Origin: Deltaproteobacteria bacterium
Lineage (GTDB): Bacteria > JAGRBM01 > JAHCIT01
NCBI GenBank assembly: GCA_026129095.1
Contig: JAHCIT010000010.1
Span: forward strand, 62,001 to 126,000
Length of the DNA stretch: 64,000 nt
Direction: 5' to 3'
In this document: piece by piece, positions 9,692 to 44,790 of the stretch
Numbering within the stretch: position 1 is the first letter of the stretch
How the letters are laid out: each line of letters starts with the position of its first letter
Program-made: the position numbers and the translations under genes
The notes under the pieces: generated by a model
What the model was told of the DNA's origin: nothing
Database searches by the model: none
Seen by the model: only the letters and a program-made list of their open reading frames with translations

Positions 9692-9694
9692 CCA

Positions 9695-10204: not shown

Positions 10205-12192
10205 GAACCCAACTGCCCGATCCTTTTCAGCAGTTCGCGGGCCCATGCGGAAGACGGGTTCGTCTGCATGGCGGCCTGGATCCAGATACGTGCAGTTTCC
10301 GGTTCGCCATTATCCAGGGCAATCTCTGCACGCATGAGGTTCGCGGCCTCGCTGCCCGGCTGGTCGCGGAGCACACCATCGATCATGTCCGTCACCTGCC
10401 GGCAAAGCAGCGGCGGCCTGCTTTCGCGGTTTTCCAGATACTGTGTCCAGGCCCAGAAGGCGTAAGACTCCAGTTCACTGGTATTCAGTTCAAAGGCTTT
10501 CTGGAAAGCCTCGCCCGCAGCCATGTACCGTTTCTGTTCCAGCAGGTCACGTCCCTTGGCGAACCATCGCTCGGTTTCATTTGCATGAACAGCGGGAGGC
10601 GGGTTGGTACGTCCCTCCAGTGCATGAAGTTCGGCCAGGTACTGCTTGCAGCGCTCAGGATCGAGAAGCGTGTCCCGGGCCAGCTGCACCCGGGCGAATG
10701 CTTCTTCGGCTTCCTGCCGGGCCTCGGGCTCGATATCCCGCGGGAGGCTGAACGGCGGGTATTTGGATGCTTCGCGCTGATAGGCTGCCGATATTTCCAC
10801 TTCCCGTGAACTGGCGCTCACGCCTAGCACGTCGAAAAGGTTTTTCTTCATCACGTCCACAAAGCGGCTGTGTATGCTGGCGGCAAGCTTCGATTTGACC
10901 GGGGCTTTCGCAGACTCGGCTGGCCGCTGGTCCATCTGCTCCAGCTGGCTCTGGAAATCCTTGCGGAGTGTGGCCGTCTGGTCCCTGACCATCTGCTCAA
11001 GCCTTGCCTGCTCGGCCGCGACATGCCCTTCGGACCGGGGCGGAAGGGATGAACTGGTCTTGGCGGTGCCAGTGCGGTCGGGAATGTGGATTCTCAGGAC
11101 TCCCAGGAGGAGCAGCGCGTAAATGGACTGGAGTGCCGAGAGGAGGCGGTCCTTCCGGCGGTCCAGTATTTCGCCCAGCGTCAGTTTCCCGTCCACGGCG
11201 TCCAACGTCATTTTTTCCGCCGGCATCAGGGAGAGCCGGGAGATGACCGTATCGGATTTGTCCGCCTTCATGAGACGAAGGCTGGTCAGCCGTTTCAGTT
11301 CCGGAAGCAGGATGTCCGCCGTATAGAACCGGCGAATTCCGGTCAGCATGATATCATTGATGTCGTATTCGAATACTTCGATATTACCGAATTCGGCATC
11401 GGTCCGGCGAAGTATGTAGTGTCCCGTGTTCCAGCCAAATGCGTTCAGTATTTTTTCCCGGATATGGGAGCGGAGGGCCTCGTAAAGATCATCTGAAGTA
11501 ATAACGCCCATTTCGATCAGCACATCGCCCTGCCGCCGGGCAGTGCGTGTCATGGTCTCGATGGACCGCTCGTAATCGGCATGGCTGATGAGCCCGATGG
11601 CAACGAGGTGCCGGCCAAGCACTTCACCGGAGATATTCGACGCGGCATACACCGGAAATCCGCCCATCATGTAGATCTTCCGGTAGTAGTCACCCTGCTC
11701 AAGCTGCAGAATGCCGGTTACGCGGTTCTGATGCACATAAGTGAGAAGTTTGCTGGTCGTCGTGCCGTTGATGATCCCGGCGATTTCGCCGCTCACTGTA
11801 CCGGGTTTTTCCGTCTTTACGCCGCCGCCAATAAGGCCCGACACAGTGGAGAGCAGTTCGTCGGTTGGAAATGGCTTGGTGAGATATCCCGATATCCGGT
11901 AGCGTTCGATGGCGTGGGTCTTTTCGCCGGGAGACTTGAACAGACCCGTGGTCATCAGGACTGGAACCGTTTTTCCTTTCTCTGTCATCCGGATGAGCTG
12001 GACCAGTTCGGCACCGGTCATGACCGGCAGGATGACATCGACGATGAGAAGATCGAATTTCTCCGCCTCGAACAGGCTCTGCGCCGTGCGTCCATCGGCG
12101 GCCGTCTTGACCTCGTAGCCTACCCCGGAAAGGGCCTGGCTCACCGTCTCAACATGAGTGGAGTCGTCATCGGCGATCAGGATGCGTTTCAA
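10201..12192 (-). CDS. Response regulator with DUF4388, J-like and TPR regions
   Basis: A multidomain protein of 663 residues. Residues 1-125 are a receiver with an intact acidic pocket, phospho-acceptor Asp52 and Lys106 (LTKPF). About 140-300 match the DUF4388 (PATAN-like) pattern, with repeated small-residue helices. About 455-530 resemble a J-domain (FDVLGV...AYQREASKY...LARDTLLDPE). However, the HPD tripeptide that stimulates Hsp70 is not present at the expected loop. The C-terminus (550-660) has TPR-like helices. No DNA-binding domain is visible. The start is TTG with a weak GGGG upstream. It converges on the kinase/FHA operon. Confidence 0.85.
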   Translation of the reverse strand: MKRILIADDDSTHVETVSQALSGVGYEVKTAADGRTAQSLFEAEKFDLLIVDVILPVMTGAELVQLIRMTEKGKTVPVLMTTGLFKSPGEKTHAIERYRISGYLTKPFPTDELLSTVSGLIGGGVKTEKPGTVSGEIAGIINGTTTSKLLTYVHQNRVTGILQLEQGDYYRKIYMMGGFPVYAASNISGEVLGRHLVAIGLISHADYERSIETMTRTARRQGDVLIEMGVITSDDLYEALRSHIREKILNAFGWNTGHYILRRTDAEFGNIEVFEYDINDIMLTGIRRFYTADILLPELKRLTSLRLMKADKSDTVISRLSLMPAEKMTLDAVDGKLTLGEILDRRKDRLLSALQSIYALLLLGVLRIHIPDRTGTAKTSSSLPPRSEGHVAAEQARLEQMVRDQTATLRKDFQSQLEQMDQRPAESAKAPVKSKLAASIHSRFVDVMKKNLFDVLGVSASSREVEISAAYQREASKYPPFSLPRDIEPEARQEAEEAFARVQLARDTLLDPERCKQYLAELHALEGRTNPPPAVHANETERWFAKGRDLLEQKRYMAAGEAFQKAFELNTSELESYAFWAWTQYLENRESRPPLLCRQVTDMIDGVLRDQPGSEAANLMRAEIALDNGEPETARIWIQAAMQTNPSSAWARELLKRIGQLGS

Positions 12193-23003: not shown

Positions 23004-23355
23004 ACTCGCCCTTGATCTCCAGGCTCGGATCGCGGGTATCGGCGATGGGTATGTCGAGAATCTCCTGCCGTCCGTCGGCGTGCTCCAGCGTCCATCGCGT
23101 CCGGGTGTGCAGCACCTTGGCACGCAAGGCCATCCCCTCGTCGGAGATTTCGAGCGGGAGCTTGAGGTCGATCGCCCCCACCGGGCAGTGCTTCACGCAG
23201 GCGGCGCAGTCCCAGCAGTCGGGCAGCCGTTCCAGGATGGCCGCCTTGCGGTCCGGTTTCATGAACAGCAGGTCGCCGGGGCAGACCATGACGCACATGG
23301 CTTCCTCAGCCTTCCCGCAGCCATTGCAGATATCCTCGTCGATGAAGATGCTCAC
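22993..23355 (-). CDS. aprB: APS reductase beta subunit (AprB-like ferredoxin)
   Basis: A protein of 120 residues with two 4Fe-4S clusters. The first motif is CNGC-x7-C-x3-CP; the second is CWDCAAC-x3-CP. This spacing, including the unusual seven-residue gap and the CW pair, is that of AprB. The C-terminal 55 residues (RTRWTLEHADG..., IPIADT) also match the AprB tail that wraps around AprA. It passes electrons to the FAD of AprA. The start overlaps the aprA stop by four bases. Confidence 0.85.
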   Translation of the reverse strand: MSIFIDEDICNGCGKAEEAMCVMVCPGDLLFMKPDRKAAILERLPDCWDCAACVKHCPVGAIDLKLPLEISDEGMALRAKVLHTRTRWTLEHADGRQEILDIPIADTRDPSLEIKGESKE

Positions 23356-25100
23356 GGCCGGCCGCTCTCCAGAGGGCGAGTCACGGCCCGGACCTCGTTA
23401 CTCTTGGTGTCATAAACCGTATTGACGAACTTCAACCAGTTCGCGTCGTCACGTTCGGGATAGTCCGTTCGCGTCTGGTAGCAGGGCCAGCGGGTTTCCT
23501 TTCGGCAGTCCAGGTGCTCGACCAGTGCACGGGCGACGAGAATCCGGTCAATCACTTCGTGGGCGAGCATGAGGTCGTGCATCTGCGGTGCCGCCATGCG
23601 ATCCACCACGCCTTCCAGCTTCCTCAGCGCATGGCGGGCGATGTCGAGCCGGTCGGCCCTGAGTTCGTATTCCTTCGAGATACCGCCCGCATATTCATCC
23701 ATCAGCTTCTGGAGGCGGAGTTCCACCTCTTCAGGGAGCACGTAGCCGCTCACCGGGCCCCGGTATTTCTCGCGCCGGACGAAGGGTTTGTAGACGCGCT
23801 CCTGTTCCCGGCGGGCGTTTTCTTCCAGTTCATCGCGGTCCGCTTTGCCGCTGTTCCCGGTGTCCGGGCGGCTCAGGATGTCATCAACGGCGATCATCGC
23901 CTCGGCCCAGCCGCCGGAGGCGTACTTCTTGGGCGCGCCGCCCGCCACGTCGCCGATAGCATGGAGGCCCGGAATGGTCGTCCGGCGGTCTGTGCCGATC
24001 CAGTAGCCCGACATTCCGTGCCCGCCCTGCACGTAGGGTTCCGACCCGCAGATGCGGACGGGGTTCAGCTTGGGGTCGATCCGCTTGTCGCCCCACATGA
24101 GCAGAATTGAAGGGGACATGTCGAGATATGAGGTCTTGATCTTCACCATGTCCGCCTCGGTGAGGTGGCTGGTGTCGAGGTAGCAGGGGCCCCGCCCGGC
24201 GCGGTCTTCCATGAGCGTCGCCAGGAGGCGGTGCGCGGTGGACATCTTCTGGCCGCCCCAGCCGGAGTAGTATTTTTCCAGGTAGTTCTCGCCAAGACGG
24301 TTCACCTGCTTGCACTTGAATCCCTGCGCCAGCACTCCTGTCGGCGACATGAAATCCCGCACCCGGAGGGCGATGAACCTCATCTCGAACGAGGTCATTT
24401 CAGCTCCGGCCCTGAGCCCCATCGCCAGTCCCGCACCCGTGTTGAAAGGCGAATACCAGACCTTGTGCCGGGCGAGGCCCGTGTTGGTCGGCAGATACAG
24501 CCCGCCGCAGCCGCCGGTGGCGATGATGGTATGGGGAGCCCGGATTCGCACGAACGCGCCCGTGCGGACATTGAAACCGAGGACGCCCGCGACACGCCCT
24601 CCGGCCATCCAGAAGTTTGTCGCCGCAACACGGTTTATTACCCGGGCGCCCGACTGGGCGACGGCGCGAGCCATGATCGGCTTGATGCGCTCGCCGCGAA
24701 TCTTGATCGAACCCCGGCCGCGGGGGGTGTAGCTGCCATCCGGTTCCTTGAGGATGGGCAGGCCCCAGCTTTCGACCTTTTTCACCGCCTCATCGAGGCG
24801 CTTTGCCAGCGAAAGCACCAGGTCCTCGCGGATTACACCAAAGTTGTCGTTGGCGACCCACCGGGTAAACGATTCAGGCGTCTCGCCCTTGTTGACATAG
24901 GCATTGATGGAACTGATTCCGGCGCACAGGCATCCGCTCCGGATGATGTTGGCCTTTTCGACGACGACGACATCGAGCGAAGGGTCAAGGCTCCGGGCAT
25001 GCGCTGCCGCGAAAGAGCCTGCCGCTCCTCCCCCGATAATAAGAAGGCCGGCCTCGATATCCTCGACCGCGGGCGTGAATGTGGAAGGGTCTGACGTCAT
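23352..25100 (-). CDS. aprA: APS reductase alpha subunit (AprA-like flavoprotein)
   Basis: A protein of 582 residues of the fumarate reductase/AprA flavoprotein family, somewhat shorter than the usual 620-660 residue AprA. The FAD-binding motif IIGGGAAGSFAA is at about 21-32. AprA-type stretches follow: SINAYVNKGETPESF, NDNFGVIREDLV, a MISS/Trp-rich flavin pocket (WYSPFNTGAG, GAEMTSFEMRF) and a late GDVAGG. Together with the AprB-like subunit it should reduce adenosine phosphosulfate to sulfite and AMP. The gene follows cysC by nine bases and overlaps aprB. A generic fumarate-reductase-like enzyme is the alternative, less likely given the partner. Confidence 0.82.
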   Translation of the reverse strand: MTSDPSTFTPAVEDIEAGLLIIGGGAAGSFAAAHARSLDPSLDVVVVEKANIIRSGCLCAGISSINAYVNKGETPESFTRWVANDNFGVIREDLVLSLAKRLDEAVKKVESWGLPILKEPDGSYTPRGRGSIKIRGERIKPIMARAVAQSGARVINRVAATNFWMAGGRVAGVLGFNVRTGAFVRIRAPHTIIATGGCGGLYLPTNTGLARHKVWYSPFNTGAGLAMGLRAGAEMTSFEMRFIALRVRDFMSPTGVLAQGFKCKQVNRLGENYLEKYYSGWGGQKMSTAHRLLATLMEDRAGRGPCYLDTSHLTEADMVKIKTSYLDMSPSILLMWGDKRIDPKLNPVRICGSEPYVQGGHGMSGYWIGTDRRTTIPGLHAIGDVAGGAPKKYASGGWAEAMIAVDDILSRPDTGNSGKADRDELEENARREQERVYKPFVRREKYRGPVSGYVLPEEVELRLQKLMDEYAGGISKEYELRADRLDIARHALRKLEGVVDRMAAPQMHDLMLAHEVIDRILVARALVEHLDCRKETRWPCYQTRTDYPERDDANWLKFVNTVYDTKSNEVRAVTRPLESGRP

Positions 25101-25109
25101 GGGAAGGCT

Positions 25110-25652
25110 CTAGTCGAGCAGCTTCATCTCCCGCAATCGGGCGATGATCTTCGCCGTGCTCTCCTGGACCGACTCCTGGTGGGTATTGCAGACGACCTCG
25201 GGGTTTTCGGGCGGTTCGTAGGGATCGGATACGCCTGTGAACTGGGGAATCTCCCCGGCGCGGGCCTTCTTGTACAAACCCTTCACGTCGCGGGCTTCAC
25301 ACACTTCGAGCGGTGCGGCGACATATACCTCGACGAACTTTCCCGCGCCCACCATTTCGCGGACCTTGCTTCGCGTCTCCCGGTAGGGGCTAATGACGGC
25401 TGCGACAGCGATCACGTCATTGCGGGTGAGAAGCTCGCACACCCAGCCGATGCGGAGGATGTTGGTGTCCCGGTCCTCGCGGGAGAACGTCAGGCCCTTG
25501 GTTAGGTGTGTCCGCACCACGTCGCCATCGAGTACCTCCACCTTGAGATGCAGCCGGTCTTTCAGCTCTTTGACCAGTGCAGCCGTGATCGTGGACTTCC
25601 CCGCACCGGAAAGCCCCGTGAACCAGATCGTGAAACCCTTTTGTCCAGTCAT
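25110..25652 (-). CDS. cysC: Adenylylsulfate kinase (APS kinase)
   Basis: A protein of 180 residues, standard for CysC. Walker A is GLSGAGKST (13-21). The APS-binding elements DGDVVR, LTKGLTFSREDRDTNI (about 50-66) and the lid region (KGLYKKARAGEIPQFTG) are all intact. It phosphorylates APS to PAPS. It is the first gene of a cysC-aprA-aprB unit. Having a PAPS-forming kinase and an APS-using reductase together is unusual, because they compete for the same substrate. ATP sulfurylase is not in the window. Confidence 0.95.
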   Translation of the reverse strand: MTGQKGFTIWFTGLSGAGKSTITAALVKELKDRLHLKVEVLDGDVVRTHLTKGLTFSREDRDTNILRIGWVCELLTRNDVIAVAAVISPYRETRSKVREMVGAGKFVEVYVAAPLEVCEARDVKGLYKKARAGEIPQFTGVSDPYEPPENPEVVCNTHQESVQESTAKIIARLREMKLLD

Positions 25653-29011: not shown

Positions 29012-29761
29012 TTGAGAGCGATCATTCTGGCAGCGGGACAGGGAACCCGGCTCCTTCCACACACGGAACGGACGCCCAAGTGTCTGCTCGACCTGAACGG
29101 TACTACCGTTCTGGAACACCAGATCCGTAACTGCCGGCGGGCCGGTATTTCCGACACGGTCGTCGTGACCGGTTTCCAGTGGCAGCTCGTCGAGGCATAC
29201 GTCTCCCGCTGGCGGCAGAACGGGCTGGCCCGCATGCGGATCGAAACTGCCTACAACCCGTTCTTCAGCACCACCAACAACTTGATCTCGCTCTGGTCCG
29301 CCCAGAAATACATGGACGAGGATTTTATCACCATCAATGGCGATAACGTGTTCGACTGGCGCATCCTTCAGCGGCTCAAGGAAACGAACAAATATCCTAT
29401 CCACGTCACAACCGCCCACAAGGACGCCTATGACGAGGACGACATGAAAGTCCTGCTGGACGGGGACCGGATCCAGGCGATCAACAAGGGGATTCCACTG
29501 GATCAGGCTGACGGCGAATCGATCGGGATCATGAAGTTTACCGGTGAGGGACGCGAACGGCTCAAGGCGACACTGGAGGACATGGTGCGCGGCCAGTCGG
29601 CCGCGACGGACTGGTACACCCGGGCCATCGAGTGGATCGCCCGGCGTGGGTATCCGGTGGGCATATGTCCGATCGGTGATCTCAAGTGGGCGGAGATCGA
29701 CTTCCCGCAGGACCTGGCCCGCGTCCGTGAAAACAGCTCGTTGTATCTGGGCGATTCCTGA
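29012..29761 (+). CDS. Polyol/choline-phosphate cytidylyltransferase-like enzyme
   Basis: A protein of 249 residues of the sugar-nucleotidyltransferase superfamily. The signature LAAGQGTRLLP (7-17) is followed by TPKCLL (catalytic Lys). The metal-binding segment is INGDN (about 109-113). The best family match by motif is the phosphocholine / inositol-1-phosphate cytidylyltransferase group, which makes CDP-activated head groups. The next gene encodes a CDP-alcohol phosphotransferase, which fits that reading. The start is TTG with no strong Shine-Dalgarno, but MRAIILAAG is the usual N-terminus. Confidence 0.82.
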   Translation: MRAIILAAGQGTRLLPHTERTPKCLLDLNGTTVLEHQIRNCRRAGISDTVVVTGFQWQLVEAYVSRWRQNGLARMRIETAYNPFFSTTNNLISLWSAQKYMDEDFITINGDNVFDWRILQRLKETNKYPIHVTTAHKDAYDEDDMKVLLDGDRIQAINKGIPLDQADGESIGIMKFTGEGRERLKATLEDMVRGQSAATDWYTRAIEWIARRGYPVGICPIGDLKWAEIDFPQDLARVRENSSLYLGDS

Positions 29762-29849
29762 TTCCTCCTTGCGGCTCCTGCTCCCGTGGGATAACCACCT
29801 GCCCCGGTCCGGTTTCCCCGGCTGTACTAGAAAGGTCAAGAGAGCCCCG

Positions 29850-31037
29850 TTGGCATTCCGCCTGATCATCCGGCTTCCTGAAACAGAACCCAGCCCCGCA
29901 TTTGTTCGCGTGGGGGGAGTTCCCGTCCTGCTGCGCCTCCTGATCGGAGGATATCGCCAGGGCGCGGAGCAGATCGAGGTGACGGGGCCGGGTGTTGAGG
30001 AGGCCCGGCGTCTCTTTGCCCAGGACCGGCGGCTGGGTGGGGCGGATATCTCATGGGGCCCCGCGGCCGGGCCGCGGAAAGAACTGCCGGTCGTGGAGAC
30101 CGAAGCGAATGTCGTGGTGGGTGGCGGTGTCTGGGAGCTTCTGGACAAGGCGACTGGCCCGGCGGAGGTTCCCGGCGCGCCTCTCATGCGGCGGCTGGGG
30201 GAAGGCAAGCCGGAGCCCCTGTGGACCGGCGAACCACCGTCGAAAAACCACTTCGCCATTCCGGCAAGCGACTCCGCCGGTGCGTGGGCGGCCAAGCGGG
30301 CAATCTTCCGCAATGTGTTCAAGCCGACATCCGGGCCGGTATCCATCCATTTCAACTCGAAACTCTCGATTCCAGTGAGCTGGCTGCTCAGTGAAACCCC
30401 GGTGACGCCGAACCAGATCACGGTGTTCACGACACTCATCGGCTTTGTGAGTGCCTGGGCGTTTTCGCTGGGTACCTTTGCCGGGTTTCTCACCGGCGGC
30501 GTGCTGTTCCAGCTCTGTGCGGCGCTCGACCGGTGCGATGGCGAGATCGCCCGCAGCAAGTACATGGATTCGCCCTCGGGCGCATGGGTGGATACGGTCG
30601 GTGATAATGTGACCTACGTGGCTTATCTGACAGGCCTTACTCTCGGATATGCGCGGTTTGCGGGGGAACGTGGCAACGCATGGGCCCCGTACGTGCACGC
30701 GATGGGTTTCGGCACGCTGGGGCTGACGGTGTTTCTCCTCGGCGGGATGTATCTCTATCTCTACCGGAACAAGAAGTCGGGCACACTGGTGGCGGTCTAC
30801 AAGGATTTTGAATCGCGGGTGGACGGAAAGAAGGCGGGCTTCGTCTACCGGTTCCTGGACAGCATCAAGATACTGGGCAAACGCGATTCCTGGTCGCTCG
30901 CCATCGGTGTGGCGGCACTTCTGGGCGGGCTTTTCCAGGCGGCGTTTTTCTACCATCTCATATTTTTCGCCACGGTCGGGACCATTGTGCTGATGAACAT
31001 CTACTTCACGGTGGCCCGCCGGAACGTGTCGGGGTGA
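29850..31037 (+). CDS. CDP-alcohol phosphotransferase with N-terminal extra domain
   Basis: A protein of 395 residues. The full catalytic motif D-G-x2-A-R-x8-G-x3-D-x3-D is present (Asp230 to Asp252), in a domain with six membrane helices (185-390). This enzyme class condenses a CDP-activated compound with an alcohol. The N-terminal 125 residues include GVPVLLRLLIGGYRQGAEQIEV, which is like the start of a nucleotidyltransferase fold but lacks the GxGTR loop. A similar cytidylyltransferase/phosphotransferase fusion exists in archaeal di-inositol-phosphate synthesis. The start is TTG with a weak AGAGAG upstream and is uncertain; the frame stays open above it. Confidence 0.85.
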   Translation: MAFRLIIRLPETEPSPAFVRVGGVPVLLRLLIGGYRQGAEQIEVTGPGVEEARRLFAQDRRLGGADISWGPAAGPRKELPVVETEANVVVGGGVWELLDKATGPAEVPGAPLMRRLGEGKPEPLWTGEPPSKNHFAIPASDSAGAWAAKRAIFRNVFKPTSGPVSIHFNSKLSIPVSWLLSETPVTPNQITVFTTLIGFVSAWAFSLGTFAGFLTGGVLFQLCAALDRCDGEIARSKYMDSPSGAWVDTVGDNVTYVAYLTGLTLGYARFAGERGNAWAPYVHAMGFGTLGLTVFLLGGMYLYLYRNKKSGTLVAVYKDFESRVDGKKAGFVYRFLDSIKILGKRDSWSLAIGVAALLGGLFQAAFFYHLIFFATVGTIVLMNIYFTVARRNVSG

Positions 31038-31043
31038 TGCGAT

Positions 31044-32069
31044 ATGGCTTTCTCCAGGGGAAAGCTGGTCCGGACGGCACTTCTGGCCGCCGGTTTCGTA
31101 TTCCTGGTAGCAGTGTTCGCCCACGAAGGCTTTGGCGAGATGTGGGCGCGCATCTCGCGGATCGGCGTGGCGGCGTTCGGCCTGATGCTGGCCCTGTCGT
31201 TCCTGTGGAATGCCTGCTCGACGCTCGGCTGGTATCTGACGTTTGACGGTTCAGGCGGCGTGGTGCGGCCGGTAAGTTACGGGCGGCTGTTTTTCGTTCG
31301 TTGGGCGGGAGAGAGCATCAATACCATTACTCCACTCATGAACCTGGGCGGCGAACCCGTGCGAATCGCGCTGATGCGCCGTCATCTGGAAACCCACCAG
31401 GCGGCGGCAACGGTCATTCTGGATAAATCGATTTTCACAATCGCCGGAATCATCCACATGGTGAGTGGCGTTGTCGTCGGCTTTTGGGTGTTTGATCTGC
31501 CCGAATCGGTCGCCTGGATCGAGGCTATCGTGGCGGGCATTTTGATGATGGCAGCAGTGATTCTGGTCACGTTGATTCGCAGGGGAAAAACGCTACTGTC
31601 GCTCGTGGGATGGCTCCGCCGCGCTGGAATCCGGTTTTCGGACGATACACTGGAAAAGGTCGAGCAGATCGACGACGAGCTCACCATCTTTTACCGGACA
31701 CACCGGGCGCGGTTCTGGACGGCGCTCACGGCACACCTCGCCGGGCGGATGAGCCGGATGCTCGATGTACTGGTGGTGGCGTGGGCATTTGGTATCGGAA
31801 TGTCGGCCTGGGAGGCCCATGCGATCGCAGCGGCGACCGTCATTATCAACGTGAGTTTTTCGTTCATTCCGCAGCAGGTTGGCGCCAACGAGGGCGGGCA
31901 TGGGCTGCTGTTCAAGGCGGTGGGTCTCGGCTGGCGCGACGGGCTCTCGACCGGGCTTGTCCGGCGGGCACGCACGCTGGTGTTCGCGCTGATGGGCTAT
32001 GTTGTGCTGGTAATCCACCAGTGGCGTTCGCCGGACGGCACCGTCATGTCCGGAAAGGCGGCCGCATGA
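31044..32069 (+). CDS. Flippase-like integral membrane protein (UPF0104)
   Basis: A protein of 341 residues with about eight membrane helices. The family pattern of lysylphosphatidylglycerol-synthase transmembrane domains and HpnL is visible: NTITPLMNLGGEPVR (about 92-106), a long hydrophobic hairpin, and FSFIPQQVGANEGG (about 271-284). Related proteins move or flip lipids across the inner membrane. It lies six bases after the phosphotransferase gene and overlaps the TolC-like gene by ATGA, so it is coupled on both sides. Confidence 0.85.
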   Translation: MAFSRGKLVRTALLAAGFVFLVAVFAHEGFGEMWARISRIGVAAFGLMLALSFLWNACSTLGWYLTFDGSGGVVRPVSYGRLFFVRWAGESINTITPLMNLGGEPVRIALMRRHLETHQAAATVILDKSIFTIAGIIHMVSGVVVGFWVFDLPESVAWIEAIVAGILMMAAVILVTLIRRGKTLLSLVGWLRRAGIRFSDDTLEKVEQIDDELTIFYRTHRARFWTALTAHLAGRMSRMLDVLVVAWAFGIGMSAWEAHAIAAATVIINVSFSFIPQQVGANEGGHGLLFKAVGLGWRDGLSTGLVRRARTLVFALMGYVVLVIHQWRSPDGTVMSGKAAA

Positions 32070-33568
32070 GCGGTTTGCTGCGCCTCTCTTGCCTGCTGGT
32101 GCTTTTGCTGCTTGTAGCGGCACCGTTTTCTCCCCTGCTTGCCCAGGCGTCAGATCCGGATACCGGAGCAGTTCAGGCTGGTAAGCCGCGGCAGGACCGT
32201 TATCCGGGGCCACCGCTGCCGGATATCGACACCCGTATCTACAATCTGGATGCCTGCCTCCGGATTGCCGATCAGGTGTCACCGGAGGTGATGATCCAGC
32301 GGCTGAAGATCGCCGAAAGCCATGCGCTGATGGGGCAGGCACAGGCGGCGGGCATACTGCCGGAGTTCACCGGCCGGGCCCTGGTCGGGCCCGCTCCCGG
32401 TCAGGAGATCCGGCGTGTGCCGGACCTGGCGGCTGCGCCGGTCTGCCTGACCAATCCGACCGATCCTGCCTGTCCCACCATCAAGGTGGAAAAATCACGT
32501 GCGCTCGACAGGCTGGGGCCGTTCTTCCGGTTCGAGCTGAACCTGGTCCAGCCCCTTTACACCTGGGGCAAGCTGGAGTCGGCCAGAATGCTGGCACAGG
32601 CCGGAATCCGGAATTCGGAACTGGAACTGGCGCTCAAGCGGGCAGAGATCCGCAAGCGGATACGCGAGCTCTACTGGGGACTGCTTGCCGCTGGCGACGG
32701 GATCGACCTGGTCGCCGATGTCGAAAAGCAGCTCGCCAGCAACCGGGACACAATCAAGGAAAAGGTCGAGATGGACGACGGGGAGTTCACCCTGACCGAT
32801 CTCTACCGCGTGGAAATCTTCCTCGGCCAGCTCCGGATGCAGATCGAGAAGGTACGGGCCCAGCAGGAACTGGCGCGGACGACGCTGGCAGTGATGCTCG
32901 GCCTCGATCCGGAGGACGAGTTCCAGCTCGCCGAGGAGGACATCGCCCCGGTGGAGATCGATCTGGACCCGGTGACATTTTACGAGGACTCCGCATCCAT
33001 CAACCATTTCAATGCCCGCCGGGCAGGTGTGGGTGTCGAGGCCCGCCGGGCACAACTGGGAACGCTCAAGTCATGGATGAAGCCGGATGTGTTCGTCGCC
33101 GGGCAGGGGTTTGCCGCCTACGCCCCCCGGCGTGAGGTCCGTTCGATATTCGCCGGTGACTATTTCCGGTCGGTTGGTGGTGGCGTCGTGCTGGGCCTGA
33201 ATTTCGATTTCAGCGGGTGGATGCACGAGGCCAAGCGCGACGAGGCACTGGCGCAGTACGAGCAGGCGCGAATTGGCCAGGAGGCAGCCATCATGGGGCT
33301 CCGTATCCAGGCGCGGCAGGCCTACTACGAGATGCTCCGCGCGCAGCGGACTGTGGAGGCGCTGCGTGAGGCTAACCTGTCCAGCCGCCGGTGGTTCCGT
33401 TCGGCGAGCCTGAACTGGGGCGTCGGCGTCGAGACGACCGATAACCTCCTGATTGCCTACCAGAACTACCTCCAGACGCGCGGAAGTTTCCTGAGTGCCA
33501 TATTCGAGAACAACAAGGCCTGGGCCGAACTCATTGAGGCGGCCGGTTTGGAGGACACCAGTCCATGA
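32066..33568 (+). CDS. TolC-like outer-membrane channel protein
   Basis: A protein of 500 residues. A signal peptide ends at LLAQA (about residue 28). The rest has the two long helical hairpins of the outer-membrane efflux (OEP) family: an N-terminal ACLRIADQ stretch, then VQPLYTWGKLESARMLAQAGI, and a mirrored second half ending LSSRRWFRSASLNWGVGVETT. No membrane-fusion protein or inner-membrane pump is nearby. The start and stop are fused by ATGA overlaps to the flippase-like and MlaC-like genes. Confidence 0.85.
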   Translation: MSGLLRLSCLLVLLLLVAAPFSPLLAQASDPDTGAVQAGKPRQDRYPGPPLPDIDTRIYNLDACLRIADQVSPEVMIQRLKIAESHALMGQAQAAGILPEFTGRALVGPAPGQEIRRVPDLAAAPVCLTNPTDPACPTIKVEKSRALDRLGPFFRFELNLVQPLYTWGKLESARMLAQAGIRNSELELALKRAEIRKRIRELYWGLLAAGDGIDLVADVEKQLASNRDTIKEKVEMDDGEFTLTDLYRVEIFLGQLRMQIEKVRAQQELARTTLAVMLGLDPEDEFQLAEEDIAPVEIDLDPVTFYEDSASINHFNARRAGVGVEARRAQLGTLKSWMKPDVFVAGQGFAAYAPRREVRSIFAGDYFRSVGGGVVLGLNFDFSGWMHEAKRDEALAQYEQARIGQEAAIMGLRIQARQAYYEMLRAQRTVEALREANLSSRRWFRSASLNWGVGVETTDNLLIAYQNYLQTRGSFLSAIFENNKAWAELIEAAGLEDTSP

Positions 33569-34200
33569 CAATGAAACGGTTTGTGGCTCTTCTGCTGGCG
33601 GTTTGCTGTCTTGTACCCTCTCTGGTGATTGCTTCGGACGCGGGTCCGTTGCCGCTCATCCAGTCGCGGGACCAGGAGATACGGGCGTATATTGGCAAGC
33701 GGACGCTGCCGCTTTCGGCCAAGGACAAGGAGCCGCTCAAGCAGCTGCTGAATGACCTGTTCGACTACGACCGCATCGCGCTGGACGCACTGGGCGCACG
33801 TAACCAGAAGCTCGCCAGCAAGAAGGAACTGGACGAGTTTCTCTCGTTGTTCCGGCAGGTCACTGTCAACAACTCGGTTTCGGACAAGGCTCTCGAGTAC
33901 TATTCGGAAGGGCGCATCCAGTACCGCAAGCCGGAGGAGGTGGGCCGCCGCACTGTGGTAAGTGCAAAGATTACCTACAAGGGTGAGGAGATCCGGCTCG
34001 ACTACTATTTCGAGAAAAACCCCAAAGGTGAATGGCGGATCACGGACTACTCGGTCGATGATGCCTCTCTCGTCGATACCTACCGGGTGAGTTTCAGCAA
34101 GATCATCAAGGATAACGGCTTCGGCGAGCTGCTTCGCCGTCTGCGCAACCGTCTGGAAAGCCCCGACGACACCAAGCTGGGCGGCGCCACCAAGCTGTAG
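33565..34200 (+). CDS. MlaC/Ttg2D-like periplasmic lipid-binding protein
   Basis: A protein of 211 residues. A signal peptide (MKRFVALLLAVCCLVPSLVIA) is followed by the MlaC fold pattern: a helical first half (LNDLFDYDRIALDALG, close to the family's FD...) and a beta-sheet half (VVSAKITYKGEEIRLDYYF, GEWRITDYSVDDASLVDTYR). MlaC carries phospholipids across the periplasm. None of mlaA, B, D, E or F is in the window. HpnM of hopanoid clusters is a close relative type. Last gene of the operon. Confidence 0.9.
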   Translation: MTMKRFVALLLAVCCLVPSLVIASDAGPLPLIQSRDQEIRAYIGKRTLPLSAKDKEPLKQLLNDLFDYDRIALDALGARNQKLASKKELDEFLSLFRQVTVNNSVSDKALEYYSEGRIQYRKPEEVGRRTVVSAKITYKGEEIRLDYYFEKNPKGEWRITDYSVDDASLVDTYRVSFSKIIKDNGFGELLRRLRNRLESPDDTKLGGATKL

Positions 34201-36479: not shown

Positions 36480-37361
36480 ATGGACCAGTCGAACAGGCAT
36501 CGTGTGATCGAATTCGCCCGGCGGGTGCTGGGTGACGAGCGCGTGGACCTCATTCTGAATGCCCCGTTCAACGATCTGGGTTTCGGCTACGACCAGTTCG
36601 GCATGGAGCGCGAATCAATCCTGCTGGGCTACCTGCTGGCACGGCCGCTTTACCAGAGCTGGTTCCGCGCAGAAAGCACGGGACATGAAAACCTGCCAGC
36701 CAGGGGCCGGGCGATGGTCGTTCCGAACCACTCCGGCGTGCTGCCGATCGACGGCCTGCTGATTTACATTGACATCATGGAGAAGGCACCCAATCCCCGG
36801 CTGATGAGGGGGATCATCGAAAAGGTGTTTTCGGGGATACCTTCGGTCGGAACATTCATGCAGCGCTGTGGCCAGGTGACAGGCACCCGGTACAACTTCG
36901 AACAGCTTCTCGAATCGGAAGAACTGGTGACGGTTTTTCCAGAGGGGGCCAAGGGCCCCGGCAAGCCGTTCAGCGACCGGTACAAGCTGGTCAATTTCAA
37001 TGTGGGTTTCGTGGAACTGGCGATCAGGCACAAGACGCCGATTATTCCAACATCGGTGATCGGGGGCGAGGAACAGTATCCGGCGCTCGTCAATATCAAG
37101 CCGCTCGCCAAAGCCCTGGGTGTTCCGTATTTCCCCATCACGCCCCAGATGCTGCTTCTGCCCCTTCCCCTGTGGGGGCTTCCGCTTCCGACCAAATACC
37201 GGATTCGCTATGGAGCGCCAATCGAGCTTCATCGGGAATACCCGGAGCATGCGACCGAGGATCCCGAACTGATGCGCCGTATTGCACGGGAGATACAGGA
37301 CACTGTCCAGGAAATGGTCAATGAGGATCTCGCCGGGCGTGAGAGTGTCTGGTTCGGCTGA
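36480..37361 (+). CDS. Lysophospholipid acyltransferase-like protein
   Basis: A protein of 293 residues with a PlsC-type catalytic block. The motif is NHSGVLPIDG, where His84 and Asp91 are separated by six residues rather than the usual four. Block III is VFPEGAKGPGKPF. The wider spacing is shared by a subgroup (MGAT-like or 'HxxxPxD' type), so the acyl acceptor may not be lysophosphatidic acid. A C-terminal stretch is hydrophobic and may touch the membrane. It is followed 29 bases later by the SRPBCC gene. Confidence 0.82.
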   Translation: MDQSNRHRVIEFARRVLGDERVDLILNAPFNDLGFGYDQFGMERESILLGYLLARPLYQSWFRAESTGHENLPARGRAMVVPNHSGVLPIDGLLIYIDIMEKAPNPRLMRGIIEKVFSGIPSVGTFMQRCGQVTGTRYNFEQLLESEELVTVFPEGAKGPGKPFSDRYKLVNFNVGFVELAIRHKTPIIPTSVIGGEEQYPALVNIKPLAKALGVPYFPITPQMLLLPLPLWGLPLPTKYRIRYGAPIELHREYPEHATEDPELMRRIAREIQDTVQEMVNEDLAGRESVWFG

Positions 37362-37390
37362 CACCGGTAAATGGAAGCGGAGGTAGTCCC

Positions 37391-37957
37391 ATGATCAACC
37401 CGCTGGATCAGTTCATCGTCGGGCCAGTCACCGGAGAACTGGAACTGGAGCGGTACGTGATCGGTATCGCGTCACCGGTGGAAGACGTGTTTGAGGTAAT
37501 TGGTGGATACCGGTTCCTGCGCCAGATGCTCGGATTGCCCCAGGAGACAACCGGCAGCGGAGAAGTGTCGGCTTCGCGGATGGGCTACCGCTTCACCTTT
37601 CCGGACCGGGACAGCATGGACAAAGGGGACGCTATTTCGCTGAACCCGCTGTTCGAGAGCCTGAAGATCGGATTCGAGGTGAGCAAGGTCCAAAAAGACC
37701 ACCGCGTGCGCCTGCGCTATACGGACGGGCCGCTGGAGGGGAAGCTGACCTGGACCCTGGAGCCTGATCCCAAGGACGACAACCGGACCATTCTCGAGTT
37801 TACCGCCGACTGTTCTATCGAAGACCCATGGTTCCGTCTCGTGTGGCTGCTGTTCTTCCAGTGGGTCCACTATTTCGTGATCGGACTGATGCTGCTTGAG
37901 ATAAAGCGCGCTGCCGAGCGGCAGCGGACCGGGGAGCCTGGACTTCAGCCAGCCTGA
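37391..37957 (+). CDS. SRPBCC/START-like protein with a C-terminal membrane helix
   Basis: A protein of 188 residues. The first 145 have the polyketide-cyclase / START-like pattern (YVIGIASPVEDVFEVIGGYRFL, and later strands ending FTADCSIEDP), a fold that binds lipids or hydrophobic ligands. Residues about 147-170 are hydrophobic (LVWLLFFQWVHYFVIGLMLLE) and could anchor it in the membrane. The ATG at 37391 has GGAGG about 8 bases upstream. It follows the acyltransferase closely, so a lipid-related job is plausible. Confidence 0.72.
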   Translation: MINPLDQFIVGPVTGELELERYVIGIASPVEDVFEVIGGYRFLRQMLGLPQETTGSGEVSASRMGYRFTFPDRDSMDKGDAISLNPLFESLKIGFEVSKVQKDHRVRLRYTDGPLEGKLTWTLEPDPKDDNRTILEFTADCSIEDPWFRLVWLLFFQWVHYFVIGLMLLEIKRAAERQRTGEPGLQPA

Positions 37958-38938: not shown

Positions 38939-39259
38939 TCAGCCGCTGTTTTTGCCTACCAGCTTGAGGGGTTGCCGCGTCCGGACAGGGATTCCCCGGT
39001 CCTTGAGGGCATCCTTGAGCAGACTGCCGGCAGCAAGAATGGCCTCACGCCGGTTTTTCTGCCGGGATGCCTCGTAGGGATCCCGCCGGGGCCGGGAGAG
39101 GGTTTCCTCCTCCTGCGGCAGCGGCAGGTTCTGCCAGGCCATCGTGCTCGCAACGCCGTTGGGCGGAGCGGCCGGTTCCAGCCGGGCGCCGAGCGATGAG
39201 GCCGGTGCACGGAACGGAACATCGAGTTGGTTGGGTTTTACAGGGTGGTTGAGTTTCAT
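38939..39259 (-). CDS. Small basic protein coupled to the giant lipoprotein
   Basis: A protein of 106 residues, Pro- and Arg-rich, with no signal peptide or membrane segment. Residues about 68-85 are helical (QKNRREAILAAGSLLKDAL). It is translationally coupled: its ATG overlaps the lipoprotein stop (ATGA), with an AAGGAAA site upstream inside that gene. No family is recognised. Position implies a role with the lipoprotein, and both would be under the sigma-54 promoter. Confidence 0.65.
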   Translation of the reverse strand: MKLNHPVKPNQLDVPFRAPASSLGARLEPAAPPNGVASTMAWQNLPLPQEEETLSRPRRDPYEASRQKNRREAILAAGSLLKDALKDRGIPVRTRQPLKLVGKNSG

Positions 39260-42200
39260 GGGAGGTTTCCTTTCTCCATGAATTGGCAGGTGTGGCCTTC
39301 GGCCACGGTGAAGACCTTGGGTTTGGACTCTGCCCGGGCGGAAGCTGGCCGCACGGATGAATAGAGGGAACTGAAAAGGCCCCGCATGGCGGCCTTCGCC
39401 TGACGGAGCACCCGGTTCCACAGGTTTTCCGGACCGGCATAGGCGTACGCAGTGCGGTCAGGATCGAAGCGGTCCTGTTCGATCCATGGGGCTGCCCAGG
39501 CATAGTTGACCGGGCGCGGGTAGGTGCACCCATTCCGGAAATCGATGACCGTGACGGTGTGCTCACCGGCCACGTACAGCAACTCCCCGTTGGGATCCGC
39601 CGCCACGCGCTGGAAATTCCCGTCTGGCGGCGTCACCGGGATGTTGATCTGGAAGGCCCGGTGGTTCTGCGCGGGACTGACAAGGAATACCCGGCGGCCG
39701 CCGTCCGTGACGGCGACATAGTTACCGATCACATCCAGCGACGTGATGGGAAGCAATGCAACGGGCGTGATGACTGCGGGGCTGGAGCCGCTGCCGGAAA
39801 GCTTCAGCAGGTTCATGCCGGAGGACAGGTAGAAGAAACCGCTCGCCGGGTGATAGACGAGCGACCGGCGTCCAATGCCCGCAGGGTCGGTGGGAGCCGG
39901 AATGTTCGTCACCGGGATCGCATGCTCGGCGATGGCGGCAGCACTGTCGACGTCGATGACCAGCGCCCGGCTCGTAGTCCGTTCCCTGACGATGAGGCGG
40001 CTCCCGTCCCCATTGAAGACCAGTTCAGCCGGTCCTTCTCCGGTCGGGATCAGGTATTCATCATCGTCATCGTCCAGCCTGTAGAGGCCCGCCATCCGGG
40101 CATCCGGATCAATGGCGGCGAGGGTATCGCCGCCGGGCGAGACAGCCAGCCGGACCGGGCTGATCGTGACGGCAATGACCCGGTCCAGGATGCCGGTATC
40201 GTTCAGGTAAACCTCGATCTGCTCCTGTCCGTGCCGGTATGAGTAGGTGCGCGTCCCATCGGTGACGGGCGGGGTAATATGCGTACCGGTGTAGCTGTCG
40301 GGACCAGACCAGACGGTTCCGGATCCGTCAGCCATGAGCAGCGTGTAACGCCCGCCACTACGGCCTGTATCAATCTGCCCGACGACCGGTTCTGAGCCGG
40401 CTGTGGCCAGTGCTGCCGGCAGGCCCGGCAGTTCCTGCCGTGAGACAGTAATCGTGGGACTCTGGCCCGCAACCTGCCACAGCCGCCGTGCCCGGCGGTC
40501 GGTGACCTGCAGCCGCCCGGTGTCGTCAACGGCAAGTATGCCTGCCTGTGCCGCAGGCCGGTCGATGGAGATGACGTCGCTCTCGCCGGGAACGACCCGA
40601 ACGAGGTCGCCGCCCGCCGTGAGCACATAGTAGCGGCCTCCGGCGGCACGAATGGACAGCGGCTCGTCATTGGTTAGATCAATCGTCCGGGTGTCGTACG
40701 GAGCATCGGTTCCCGTAACGATGGTCAGGCGCGAAGCGCCTGATTTCCTCGCCTCCAGGATGGCAAACTCGTCTACGCTGGCCGTGGCGATGAAATCCCC
40801 GGCGCGTGAGGGGGTTTTCGCCGGAAGGTTCAGCGCGACATCTCCCAGATCGGGCAAGTCAGTCACCGAGCCGGTGAAGAAGGCCAGCATTGACCGGTAA
40901 AGGCTGCGGCTTGTGGTGGCCTCACCGGAGCCCAGACCACGGACAGCCACCAGTTCGCCTTCAGGCGTGTATATGGCGTCGTAACGGCTGGGCGGATCGT
41001 TCCCGAGACTCCGGTGCACGATTACCGCGCCGTCATCGGAAACCTCCGTGATCCCTGCGGCATGTATGACCGCAATGACCCCGGTATCAGGGTTGGCAGT
41101 CACTCCGGTGATCTCTGTTTCCGGTGTGAAGGGAACATCGAAAAGCACTGCCGGGATGGCGGGGTTCACGAAGTCGATCCGCCGGTTGTCCCGGTCGGCG
41201 ACCACAAACCGGCCGGACCAGGGTGATGCGATGAGCGAGAGCGCGCCGGGGTTCGCACGGTCCAGATCGACCGAGCCGGTGCTGGGTCCGCCTGTGGTAT
41301 CAAAAAAGACGAGCCGGCCTCCGGTGTTGCTGGTGAGCACACCCACCCGGCCGGTGCCGGTATCAACGGCGATGTCGAGCGCTGGCGCGGGAAGCGTGGC
41401 GGCCGTCGTGACCGACAGGTCGTCCAGGTTCACCCGATCAAGAGACGCATCGCCTGCTATCCACAGAAGCCGGCGGACGGTGTCGTGCGCCATCATTTTC
41501 CCGGCGCCGCCGGGCAGGGCGAAATCGTGCCGGGTGCCTGCCGCCCAGTCCCGGTAGAACAGCGAGGCAACACCCTGCTGGAGGACGAATTGCAGTTCGC
41601 CATCAACAGCCTGGTTGAGGGCGCGGCCATACTGCCTTGAAGCGCTGGTCAGGCTGACCGGCTGCACACACAGCCGTTTCACGTTGACCGTCACCGTGTC
41701 CGTGTGCGTCTGGAACTGGTTGTCGGTTACCTGAAGCTGGAATGTGAATGCCGTGTCCGTCCCGGCATTGATCGCAGCCAGGGTAATGGTCGAGGTCGTC
41801 TTGTTCACGGCGGCCCAGCCGGGAATATGCGCGGGATTGCCGGCGGTCATGCTCCAGAGGTAGGTGAGGCCGCCGCCTTCCGGGTCGTAGGAGGCCGTGC
41901 CATCAATAAACAGGGGCGTCGTGTCGAAAACGAACTGATCGGGACCTGCATTGGCGACCGGCGGGTAGTTGGAAGTCGATATCGTGATAATGACGGTATC
42001 CGATGCGCTGGCTGTAAAGACGTCGGTCGCGGTGAGCTGGAAGATGAGCGTAATGTCGCCGCCCGATGCATCCGGCGGGTTGAACGATGGATCCGCAGTG
42101 GTCTGTCCGGTGATGCCCACGTCCGGTCCCGAAAGCTGGGTCCATAGAAGCGAGTAGGAATCCCCTTCGGGGTCCACGGCCGAACCGGAGAGCGAATAAG

Positions 42201-44790
42201 GCGCGCTATCCGGAATTGTGACGTCTGGTCCGGCACTGACGAGTGGGGGCTGATTGACATTGGTAATCGTCACAATGACTGAGTCCGACGCCGAAGCGCC
42301 TGCCGGGTCAGTCGCTGTCACCTGAAACGTGAGCAGGACAGGTGTGTTGCTCAGCAGTTCCGGCGCAAAGAAACTCACAATGGCGCCCGCCCCCTGGATG
42401 GTCACGAAGGGAGAGCCGCCGGTCTGTACCCATTCGAAGGTGACGGCACCGCCCTCGGGGTCGCTGGTACCAGAGGCGTCGAGAATCACCATCGTGAGTT
42501 CAGGAGCGGAGAAGTTCGGGCCAGCATCTACCGCCGGGGGCATGTTGGCCGTCAGGGTGACCGGTCCGGCGGCGAGGTCTGACGTATTGCTGCGCCCGTC
42601 TGCTGCCTCGACGAGGACCGTATAGGCACCCGCCTGGTCAACATCATCGAGGGTTCCGCCCCACAGACCTTCGCCAAGGGCTGCCAGCTCGAAGCTGTAG
42701 GGCCCGCCGGGGCCTGACACTGCTGCCGTTACAGCGGCGACTCCAGAAAGCGGATCGCCGGCAAGCACGGTCACCTGCAAAGAAACCGATCCGCCAGTCG
42801 AGATCACCGTCGAGGAGGCGGTGAAGTCGAGGTCCGAAAGCTCCGGACCGGTGGTGTCGATGGTAAAACCGCCGGTAACCGGGACGGGGTCAGCATTGCT
42901 GAACAGGTCAACCGCATAGACGGAAAATTCATAGTTTCCGTCATCGAGACCAGTTGCCTCGTAAGCAGCGGTGAACCCGTTTGCCGATTCGGCGCTGGCG
43001 TCAGGCTCGGTGATGCCGGTCGTGAGGTTGTGAAGCTGGATCGTGAACGAGGCGATTTTCCCCGCCGGGTCGGATCCGCCCTGGGTGTCATCGCCGTAAA
43101 GGGTCAGGCGAAGGTCGTTGCCGTTTGTTTGCGGAACTCCACCCGCCAGGATCTCGATGTCCGGGGAATAGGTTTCTGGCGCCAGCAGGTCGTTGCTGGC
43201 CCGCTCAACAGCGTCCACCTTGGCGGGTGTGTTGTCGTTCAGGGCGATGGTCACGTACCGGTAGAGCGTCCCGTCACTGCCCGCATCGAGAGCGAACCGG
43301 CCGGAGCCGATCGAACCGGAGTTGGGAGCCTGTGCAAGCGCCAGCCGTGCAAGCGTGGTAGTGGTCTGCGACAGCCATACCAGCACCGACGACCGGTAGG
43401 GGCCCGCCATATCGAGCCAGGCGTCGGCTGCCCGTGAGGGACGGGCCTGAATCCATTCGCAGGGATCGGGGCCCATGTCGAGGAGAAGATATGCTCCATT
43501 GGCAAGTTGCGAGACGAGCGAGAGATTCGCCGGAGCAAGTCCCACGACCGGAGGCTGCGAGCCGCTGAGAACCGCCGTGACGGGATCGGGCGCGCCGGTG
43601 GCGCGGTCGGCCTCCTGGGTGCCGTTCTGGGCGGCGACGGAATCGGCAAAGGCATCACAGGGAACCAGAAGTGCATCACGTCCGTCGCCCGGCGGCGGGA
43701 CGATGGTGAGCAGGAACGTGCGGCGATCCTCATTCAGATCCTGGTCGCGGACTGAGAGGTCAAATACATAAGTACCAGCAGTCGCTGGTGTGCCCGACAG
43801 GAGCCCTCCGGAGCTGATGGTCATGCCCGAGGGGAACGAACCGCTGCGGAACGCCCAGCTGACCGCGCCGGTGCCGCCGCTGGAAAGAAGCTGGAACGAG
43901 TAGGGAGTCCCCTGGTTTCCGGCGGGAAGAGTCAGCGACAGGATCGCGGGTTTTGTTATGTCAATAACGGTGATCCGGGCAAGCTGGGTCACAGGGGAAA
44001 GCCCGCCCGAACCAAGCAGCCGAAGGGTTCTGTGACCGGGCCCGGCAGTGGAAGCTGCGGTCAGGCTGATTTGCACCGTGTCGGCAGTGGCACCACTAAT
44101 GGAGTCGACGGTGAGTCCCGCCAAGCCTTCCATCACGCCGGCAGTGACCGTTTCCAGATTGTGTCCGGTGACGGTGATCTCAAGCGTGTTGCCCGGCAGC
44201 ACTGCTGCTGCCGACAGGCTCACGATCTCCGGCTGCGGCATGGAACTGTCGAGCACGTTCGTCTCGTCCCAGGGGGTGTCGGCATCGATGCCGGCTGCGA
44301 GGATTCGCCCGATAAGCCGCAGCGAAACCTGATCCGCGCCGTGCGCGGCAAGACGCTGCCGGATCGTGCCGCCTGAGGTGGCGGGGCCATCAAGCAGTGC
44401 CGCCGTGTCGAACTGGCCGGTAAAGAGATTTTCCCGCGCCGGATCCTGCAGCGTCATGGTCAGCAGATCGGTAGAGATGATCTCGCCGGTTTCATCGGGC
44501 GACAGGTAGGAGAGCCGGGCCTCGGCCTGAAACAGGATGCTCTCGGGATACAGGTCGCCGCGCAGCTTCACCTCGACTGTGATTGAGGCGGGCGGGTTGG
44601 AAGCGGGGAAGATCGACGGGGCGACAGCGATCCGTTCGGCCTGGGCGCGGAGCACCGGAGGGCCCGGCTCGACGATTGGCGGCGGGCCGCCAACCTGGCA
44701 GGCTGGTATCACGGCGGCAGCACAAAAGAGGCCCGCGAGAGCGAGTCCTCGCCCCGTGCGTGATGCGGCTCCGGTGAAAATTCTCAGCAA
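39256..44790 (-). CDS. Giant modular lipoprotein with Ig/PKD-type domains and propeller repeats
   Basis: A protein of 1844 residues. The signal peptide ends in lipobox IPAC (Cys31). Residues about 60-190 are unassigned; about 275-365 include a putative Ig-like fold (GTPYSFQL...LSGTPATAGTYVFDLSVRD). About 760-1095 hold three tandem PKD/cadherin-like repeats, each starting ...PP-V-AGP and carrying DPEG. The last 700 residues look like beta-propeller blades (VDTGTGRVGVL, FFDTTGG, YVAGEHTVTVIDFRNG). The start is TTG with GGAAAGG upstream. It is the likely surface output of the adjacent sigma-54 system. Confidence 0.85.
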   Translation of the reverse strand: MLRIFTGAASRTGRGLALAGLFCAAAVIPACQVGGPPPIVEPGPPVLRAQAERIAVAPSIFPASNPPASITVEVKLRGDLYPESILFQAEARLSYLSPDETGEIISTDLLTMTLQDPARENLFTGQFDTAALLDGPATSGGTIRQRLAAHGADQVSLRLIGRILAAGIDADTPWDETNVLDSSMPQPEIVSLSAAAVLPGNTLEITVTGHNLETVTAGVMEGLAGLTVDSISGATADTVQISLTAASTAGPGHRTLRLLGSGGLSPVTQLARITVIDITKPAILSLTLPAGNQGTPYSFQLLSSGGTGAVSWAFRSGSFPSGMTISSGGLLSGTPATAGTYVFDLSVRDQDLNEDRRTFLLTIVPPPGDGRDALLVPCDAFADSVAAQNGTQEADRATGAPDPVTAVLSGSQPPVVGLAPANLSLVSQLANGAYLLLDMGPDPCEWIQARPSRAADAWLDMAGPYRSSVLVWLSQTTTTLARLALAQAPNSGSIGSGRFALDAGSDGTLYRYVTIALNDNTPAKVDAVERASNDLLAPETYSPDIEILAGGVPQTNGNDLRLTLYGDDTQGGSDPAGKIASFTIQLHNLTTGITEPDASAESANGFTAAYEATGLDDGNYEFSVYAVDLFSNADPVPVTGGFTIDTTGPELSDLDFTASSTVISTGGSVSLQVTVLAGDPLSGVAAVTAAVSGPGGPYSFELAALGEGLWGGTLDDVDQAGAYTVLVEAADGRSNTSDLAAGPVTLTANMPPAVDAGPNFSAPELTMVILDASGTSDPEGGAVTFEWVQTGGSPFVTIQGAGAIVSFFAPELLSNTPVLLTFQVTATDPAGASASDSVIVTITNVNQPPLVSAGPDVTIPDSAPYSLSGSAVDPEGDSYSLLWTQLSGPDVGITGQTTADPSFNPPDASGGDITLIFQLTATDVFTASASDTVIITISTSNYPPVANAGPDQFVFDTTPLFIDGTASYDPEGGGLTYLWSMTAGNPAHIPGWAAVNKTTSTITLAAINAGTDTAFTFQLQVTDNQFQTHTDTVTVNVKRLCVQPVSLTSASRQYGRALNQAVDGELQFVLQQGVASLFYRDWAAGTRHDFALPGGAGKMMAHDTVRRLLWIAGDASLDRVNLDDLSVTTAATLPAPALDIAVDTGTGRVGVLTSNTGGRLVFFDTTGGPSTGSVDLDRANPGALSLIASPWSGRFVVADRDNRRIDFVNPAIPAVLFDVPFTPETEITGVTANPDTGVIAVIHAAGITEVSDDGAVIVHRSLGNDPPSRYDAIYTPEGELVAVRGLGSGEATTSRSLYRSMLAFFTGSVTDLPDLGDVALNLPAKTPSRAGDFIATASVDEFAILEARKSGASRLTIVTGTDAPYDTRTIDLTNDEPLSIRAAGGRYYVLTAGGDLVRVVPGESDVISIDRPAAQAGILAVDDTGRLQVTDRRARRLWQVAGQSPTITVSRQELPGLPAALATAGSEPVVGQIDTGRSGGRYTLLMADGSGTVWSGPDSYTGTHITPPVTDGTRTYSYRHGQEQIEVYLNDTGILDRVIAVTISPVRLAVSPGGDTLAAIDPDARMAGLYRLDDDDDEYLIPTGEGPAELVFNGDGSRLIVRERTTSRALVIDVDSAAAIAEHAIPVTNIPAPTDPAGIGRRSLVYHPASGFFYLSSGMNLLKLSGSGSSPAVITPVALLPITSLDVIGNYVAVTDGGRRVFLVSPAQNHRAFQINIPVTPPDGNFQRVAADPNGELLYVAGEHTVTVIDFRNGCTYPRPVNYAWAAPWIEQDRFDPDRTAYAYAGPENLWNRVLRQAKAAMRGLFSSLYSSVRPASARAESKPKVFTVAEGHTCQFMEKGNLP

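Follow-up and report, generated by a model that had tools for sequence, protein, structure and literature searches.

The operon at positions 29012-34200 of the window, the 64,000-nucleotide stretch of DNA analysed here, probably couples lipid head-group synthesis to export. The best explanation of the locus as a whole, which we put forward with moderate confidence, is that a CpgD/CpgA-like module for the head group has been combined with a TolC channel and a paralogue of HpnL/M/N, the hopanoid exporter. It is stated as unknown how bacterial sphingolipids reach the outer membrane from the inner one (PMC11324152), and there is an equal gap in the case of other anionic lipids at the cell surface. 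A conserved locus in which the genes for head-group synthesis stand beside a flippase, an RND pump, MlaC and TolC names candidate parts for such a path, gives a setting in which DUF3047 can be tested, and would add a lipid route ending in TolC beside Lpt, Mla and MCE.

As shown in Table 1, position and family searches give five co-directional genes. They lie in a 3.67-Mb genome of 23 contigs that is 96.65% complete (G000), with gaps of 88, 6, -4 and -4 bases from gene 1 to gene 5, so that the preliminary description of a head-to-tail series with short or negative spacing is borne out, as are the two ATGA overlaps joining the last three genes (genes 3-4 and 4-5). Scattering of the genes in relatives, which would have spoken against the preliminary description, was not seen: G001, the only same-order relative, has all five together and in the same order. 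Because of this, and because other phyla show most of these genes again in the same succession, the adjacency of the five genes goes beyond chance. A promoter scan of the operon found no sigma-70-like site, and no close relatives were found in viral contigs.

Table 1 Genes of the operon in the window, with the evidence for each assignment
Feature	Position	Strand	Evidence and remarks
Cytidylyltransferase, LicC/PntC/IPCT/CpgD group	29012..29761	+	249 aa, TTG start; Pfam/NCBIfam, PDB profile and fold matches, AF2, alignments, tree
CDP-alcohol phosphotransferase	29850..31037	+	395 aa; Pfam, motif, PDB profile, AF2 fold matches
Flippase-like membrane protein, HpnL-like	31044..32069	+	Pfam, NCBIfam
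TolC-like outer-membrane factor	32066..33568	+	Pfam, signal-peptide-like N terminus
MlaC-family periplasmic lipid carrier	33565..34200	+	Pfam, signal-peptide-like N terminus

The cytidylyltransferase encoded by the first gene matches NTP_transf_3 (7.5e-13, Pfam), its top sequence-profile matches in the PDB are the IPCT structures 4JD0 and 2XME, and all ten best matches in a fold search with its AF2 model (pLDDT 94.5) are CTP enzymes (PntC, LicC and IPCT). From this likeness in sequence and fold we infer that the enzyme uses CTP. The same fold is seen in Caulobacter CpgD, a phosphoglycerate cytidylyltransferase (glycerate contacts: Asn90, Asn110, Ser170 via water) in which Trp201 moves upon CTP binding (PMC13228409, preprint). 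The residues reported for CpgD (R16, K26, T88, N90, T93, N110, G111, D112, S170 and W201; PMC13228409, PMC12275187) correspond to R13, K23, T88, N90, S93, N109, G110, D111, S170 and W201 of the window enzyme, which also has K146 among its CpgD-type residues and a serine in place of T93; this comparison uses published residue numbers and presumed orthologues in ceramide-type clusters, not a direct alignment with CpgD. In an alignment, N109, S170 and W201 are common to the window enzyme and the enzymes of three ceramide-type clusters (L213, L218 and L052), which adjoin serine-palmitoyltransferase-like genes and fall in the same clade of the tree as the window enzyme. That clade stands apart from the PEP-mutase-linked and the IPCT-like (mostly fused) enzymes, with moderate support for the deeper forks. 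Within the clade T88 and N90 are not kept in every member, and W201 is replaced in the enzymes of Gemmatimonadota and Latescibacterota and is thus not kept in all exporter loci, so that different loci may have different head groups. The positions of the acidic amine ligands, E104/E196 in PntC and D105/D192 in LicC (PMC6697681), are occupied by N109 and T203 in the window enzyme according to the alignment with PntC. Judged by this residue match, which does not prove membership of CpgD, the window enzyme appears to be CpgD-like. Since its residues match CpgD and the acidic amine ligands are absent, phosphoglycerate is our tentative choice of head group.

The CDP-alcohol phosphotransferase matches CDP-OH_P_transf (1.1e-8, Pfam), is homologous over its full length to PDB 4MND (profile search, E=1e-65), and has 4O6N and 4MND as fold matches of its AF2 model (pLDDT 94.1). 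Its best start is the TTG at 29850 (stop at 31037), because the relative L051 begins at the same residue (MTFQLVLQLP / LAFRLIIRLP). L051 is also the closest relative (47% identity) and has a PntC-like enzyme as its neighbour, which implies that different head groups can be paired with the phosphotransferase. In the C-terminal membrane domain the D-x2-DG-x2-AR-x8-G-x3-D-x3-D motif is intact (D227 to D252 in P0001), and its four aspartates and two glycines are invariant among 26 relatives. The N-terminal fused cytidylyltransferase-like domain has neither the GxGxR nor the PK motif (nucleotide loop and lysine gone) and is dead, as if replaced by the separate gene. A separate cytidylyltransferase is adjacent in 31 of 62 loci with a degenerate fused domain and in none of the 21 with an intact one (Fisher p=1e-5, a guide only, as related loci are not independent), so that across the loci the two are mutually exclusive; the motif search used for this count is a simple one and missed two intact cases, L036 and L041.

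For the remaining three genes, the flippase-like protein matches LPG_synthase_TM (3e-20, Pfam) and scores against HpnL (TIGR03476) at E=4e-27, with 95 of 196 bits and thus below the curated cut-off. The carrier matches MlaC (4e-26, Pfam) and is closer to HpnM (1.3e-15; 57 of 160 bits, again below the curated cut-off) than to E. coli MlaC (3.8e-6). The earlier reading needs a correction here, as the flippase and the carrier are more akin to HpnL and HpnM, respectively, with MprF and E. coli MlaC further off. The TolC-like protein matches OEP in two stretches (4e-29, Pfam); a longer open reading frame from 31610 was rejected as a frame artefact. With this TolC as query, only the TolC of this locus is found in G000 and G001 (E<=0.01), whereas the TolCs of distant loci are found at about 1e-29 to 1e-52; the databases differ in size and the contrast alone counts. 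The TolC thus belongs to a subfamily specific to the locus, and we read the pattern of conservation as a whole as co-inheritance of one machine.

Scanning genomes with a phosphotransferase profile gave 80 named loci, to which profiles for each gene were then applied. Gemmatimonadota and Latescibacterota also have the module, and KSB1 has part of it. The order in L058, L065 and L070 (Latescibacterota) and in L067 and L079 (Gemmatimonadota) is cytidylyltransferase, phosphotransferase, flippase, TolC, DUF3047, MlaC and RND, with an extra MlaC-like domain ahead of DUF3047 in L065. The contig of L056 begins within the phosphotransferase and has the remaining set, L054 is ordered TolC, phosphotransferase, MlaC and RND, and L088 (KSB1) holds the phosphotransferase, an MlaC-DUF3047 fusion (9054-10307), TolC and MlaC. 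DUF3047 is thus regularly present in the export locus; it has no match in G000 and a single one in G001 that does not adjoin the operon. We found no known function for it and, in full-text searches, one paper that names it, a survey of unknown domains. A full-text literature search found no paper combining CDP-alcohol phosphotransferase, TolC, flippase and sphingolipid. Upstream of the export locus in L058, L065 and L070, on the minus strand, a second cytidylyltransferase and phosphotransferase lie divergently, back to back with it; in L058 and L070 this second set also includes a flippase of Wzx-like type, and related Gemmatimonadota loci have at least the second cytidylyltransferase.

The preliminary description regarded a TolC-type channel with an MlaC-type carrier and no pump as a non-standard arrangement. 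That is the case in the window, in G001 and in L088 (no pump within 16.6 kb), but MlaC is directly followed by an HpnN-like RND in most of the complete loci from other phyla, so the form without a pump is a variant and does not define the system. A linked RND is present in L054, L056, L058, L065, L067, L070 and L079, and all loci that are long enough, apart from the three named, carry it. These linked pumps match TIGR03480 at about 1e-97 (325 of 752 bits, far below the curated cut-off), and in the RND tree they lie near, yet apart from, the unlinked RND homologues of G000 and G001. No membrane-fusion protein or RND pump of the HAE1 type occurs in the window operon or directly beside it, and we know of no partner that bridges MlaC and TolC. 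G000 has three unlinked HpnN-like homologues, at C1, C4 and C5, the last of which adjoins aroE, as in G001; an unlinked RND of this kind could supply the pump of the window system, and no further tie of the three to the operon was found.

Taken together, families and synteny fit the overall idea of the preliminary description, a path from head-group activation through transfer, flipping and periplasmic carriage to an outer-membrane channel, with its pump, head group and family kinship corrected. The CpgD-like cytidylyltransferase would use CTP and a small phosphate, most likely phosphoglycerate, to form CDP-glycerate, and the CDP-alcohol phosphotransferase, CpgA-like in its domain, would pass the head group with its phosphate on to an acceptor lipid at the inner membrane. 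The HpnL-like protein may then flip or deliver the lipid to the periplasmic leaflet, from where the HpnM/MlaC-like carrier would ferry it across the periplasm, presumably outwards, energised by the HpnN-like RND in relatives and perhaps by an unlinked pump here; the TolC-type protein would be the outer-membrane part of the route. More speculatively, and rather doubtfully in its full form, the locus could represent a widespread undescribed trans-envelope exporter, in which an HpnL-like flippase, an HpnN-like pump, an MlaC/HpnM carrier, DUF3047 and a dedicated TolC carry an anionic lipid derived from CDP-glycerate to the outer membrane or beyond it, the order to which the window genome belongs having the form without a linked pump.

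Concerning the lipid acceptor, the only homologue of serine palmitoyltransferase in G000 and G001 lies among biotin genes (bioF), and a ceramide acceptor was rejected for G000 on these grounds; the acceptor is probably not ceramide, and that of Caulobacter does not carry over. A glycerolipid is the plain choice; a match to hopene cyclase in both genomes also makes a hopanoid derivative possible.

The same synthesis and export machine could instead serve a different head group. Inositol phosphate, or another polyol or sugar phosphate handled in the manner of IPCT/DIPPS, would agree with the homology of the phosphotransferase to A. fulgidus IPCT-DIPPS (4MND), with the IPCT structures at the top of the profile matches and with an NGD motif close to the MGD of IPCT. 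We consider it unlikely, because G000 has no match for inositol-phosphate synthase, the synthase is linked in 13 of 52 loci without a separate same-strand cytidylyltransferase and in 0 of 31 with one, and the window enzyme falls outside the IPCT-type clade. Less likely still is an amine (phosphocholine, phosphoethanolamine or 2-aminoethylphosphonate, by a Kennedy-like or phosphonolipid route), for which the best fold matches, PntC and LicC, would speak. G001 also has a likely phosphonolipid locus (L048, 1096-6133 of G001:C347), where relatives of the phosphotransferase and of the flippase accompany a fusion of PEP mutase with a cytidylyltransferase and frames that resemble phosphonopyruvate decarboxylase. 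Against this, the acidic ligands of PntC are replaced in the window enzyme, the PEP-mutase-linked enzymes belong to a different clade, and the only PEP-mutase-family match in G000 is weak and below the cut-off, by which a phosphonate is disfavoured. The inositol, choline and polyol head groups originally proposed thus give way, with the synthase and the amine ligands missing and the residues matching a phosphoglycerate cytidylyltransferase, to phosphoglycerate as the favoured candidate.

A further alternative is that two functions merely share transcription, a lipid module and a TolC/MlaC pair engaged in, for example, retrograde phospholipid return or efflux. Dadabacteria-type loci keep the first two genes with no flippase, TolC or MlaC nearby, and the window TolC and MlaC have no pump beside them; in addition, E. 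coli MlaC is usually assigned to retrograde transport. However, TolC and MlaC accompany the phosphotransferase in several phyla, the TolC belongs to a subfamily specific to the locus, and the HpnN-type pumps beside MlaC suggest export, which together make separate functions improbable and favour synthesis coupled to export.

Among known systems, the closest in synthesis is the ceramide diphosphoglycerate pathway of Caulobacter, where CpgD (CC_1152) works with CC_1159, a protein that is needed for the lipid and has a CDP-alcohol-type domain (PMC11324152); for this reason the pair formed by the first two window genes looks like CpgD/CpgA, with N109 (N110 in CpgD), S170 and W201 as shared residues. 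The Caulobacter system differs in its ceramide acceptor and in its proposed exporters, LptC2/F2/G2 and another flippase, where the window has HpnL, MlaC and TolC types. Two of the ceramide-type clusters, L213 and L218 (G226 and G355), combine a CpgD-like cytidylyltransferase with LptF/LptG-like genes and, read by eye from the sequence, serine-palmitoyltransferase-like, reductase-like, acyl-AMP-ligase-like and acyltransferase-like genes. In the hopanoid HpnL/HpnM/HpnN set (HAE3 RND) the flippase-like, MlaC-like and RND members are homologous to those found here, but the members in the window and its relatives score below the curated cut-offs, come with TolC and DUF3047, and are linked to CDP-head-group enzymes instead of hopanoid genes, with the pump unlinked in the window. 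IPCT-DIPPS of A. fulgidus (4MND) has the same two-domain architecture as the phosphotransferase, whose motif both it and AF2299 (4O6N) share, whereas in the window the motifs of the fused cytidylyltransferase are lost and the neighbouring gene encodes a separate enzyme from another clade. The AmeABCD cassette of Castellaniella defragrans, which is linked to monoterpene tolerance, similarly unites an RND of the HAE3 type and its partners in the periplasm and the outer membrane, but these partners are DUF1302 and DUF1329 (LolA-like) proteins and it has no lipid synthesis genes (PMC6394551). The Mla system (MlaFEDBCA) shares the MlaC-family carrier, which in the window is linked to TolC instead; no MlaD/E/F or MlaFEDB genes lie beside it, the MCE genes of the genome being on other contigs.

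Elsewhere in the window, an acyltransferase gene (Pfam) and one that is weakly SRPBCC-like follow shortly downstream of the operon (36480-37957). By eye, an AprA-like adenylylsulfate reductase subunit adjoins an APS-kinase-like gene on the minus strand (23352-25652), and an 1844-aa frame at 39256-44790, also on the minus strand, contains repeated immunoglobulin/PKD-like stretches.
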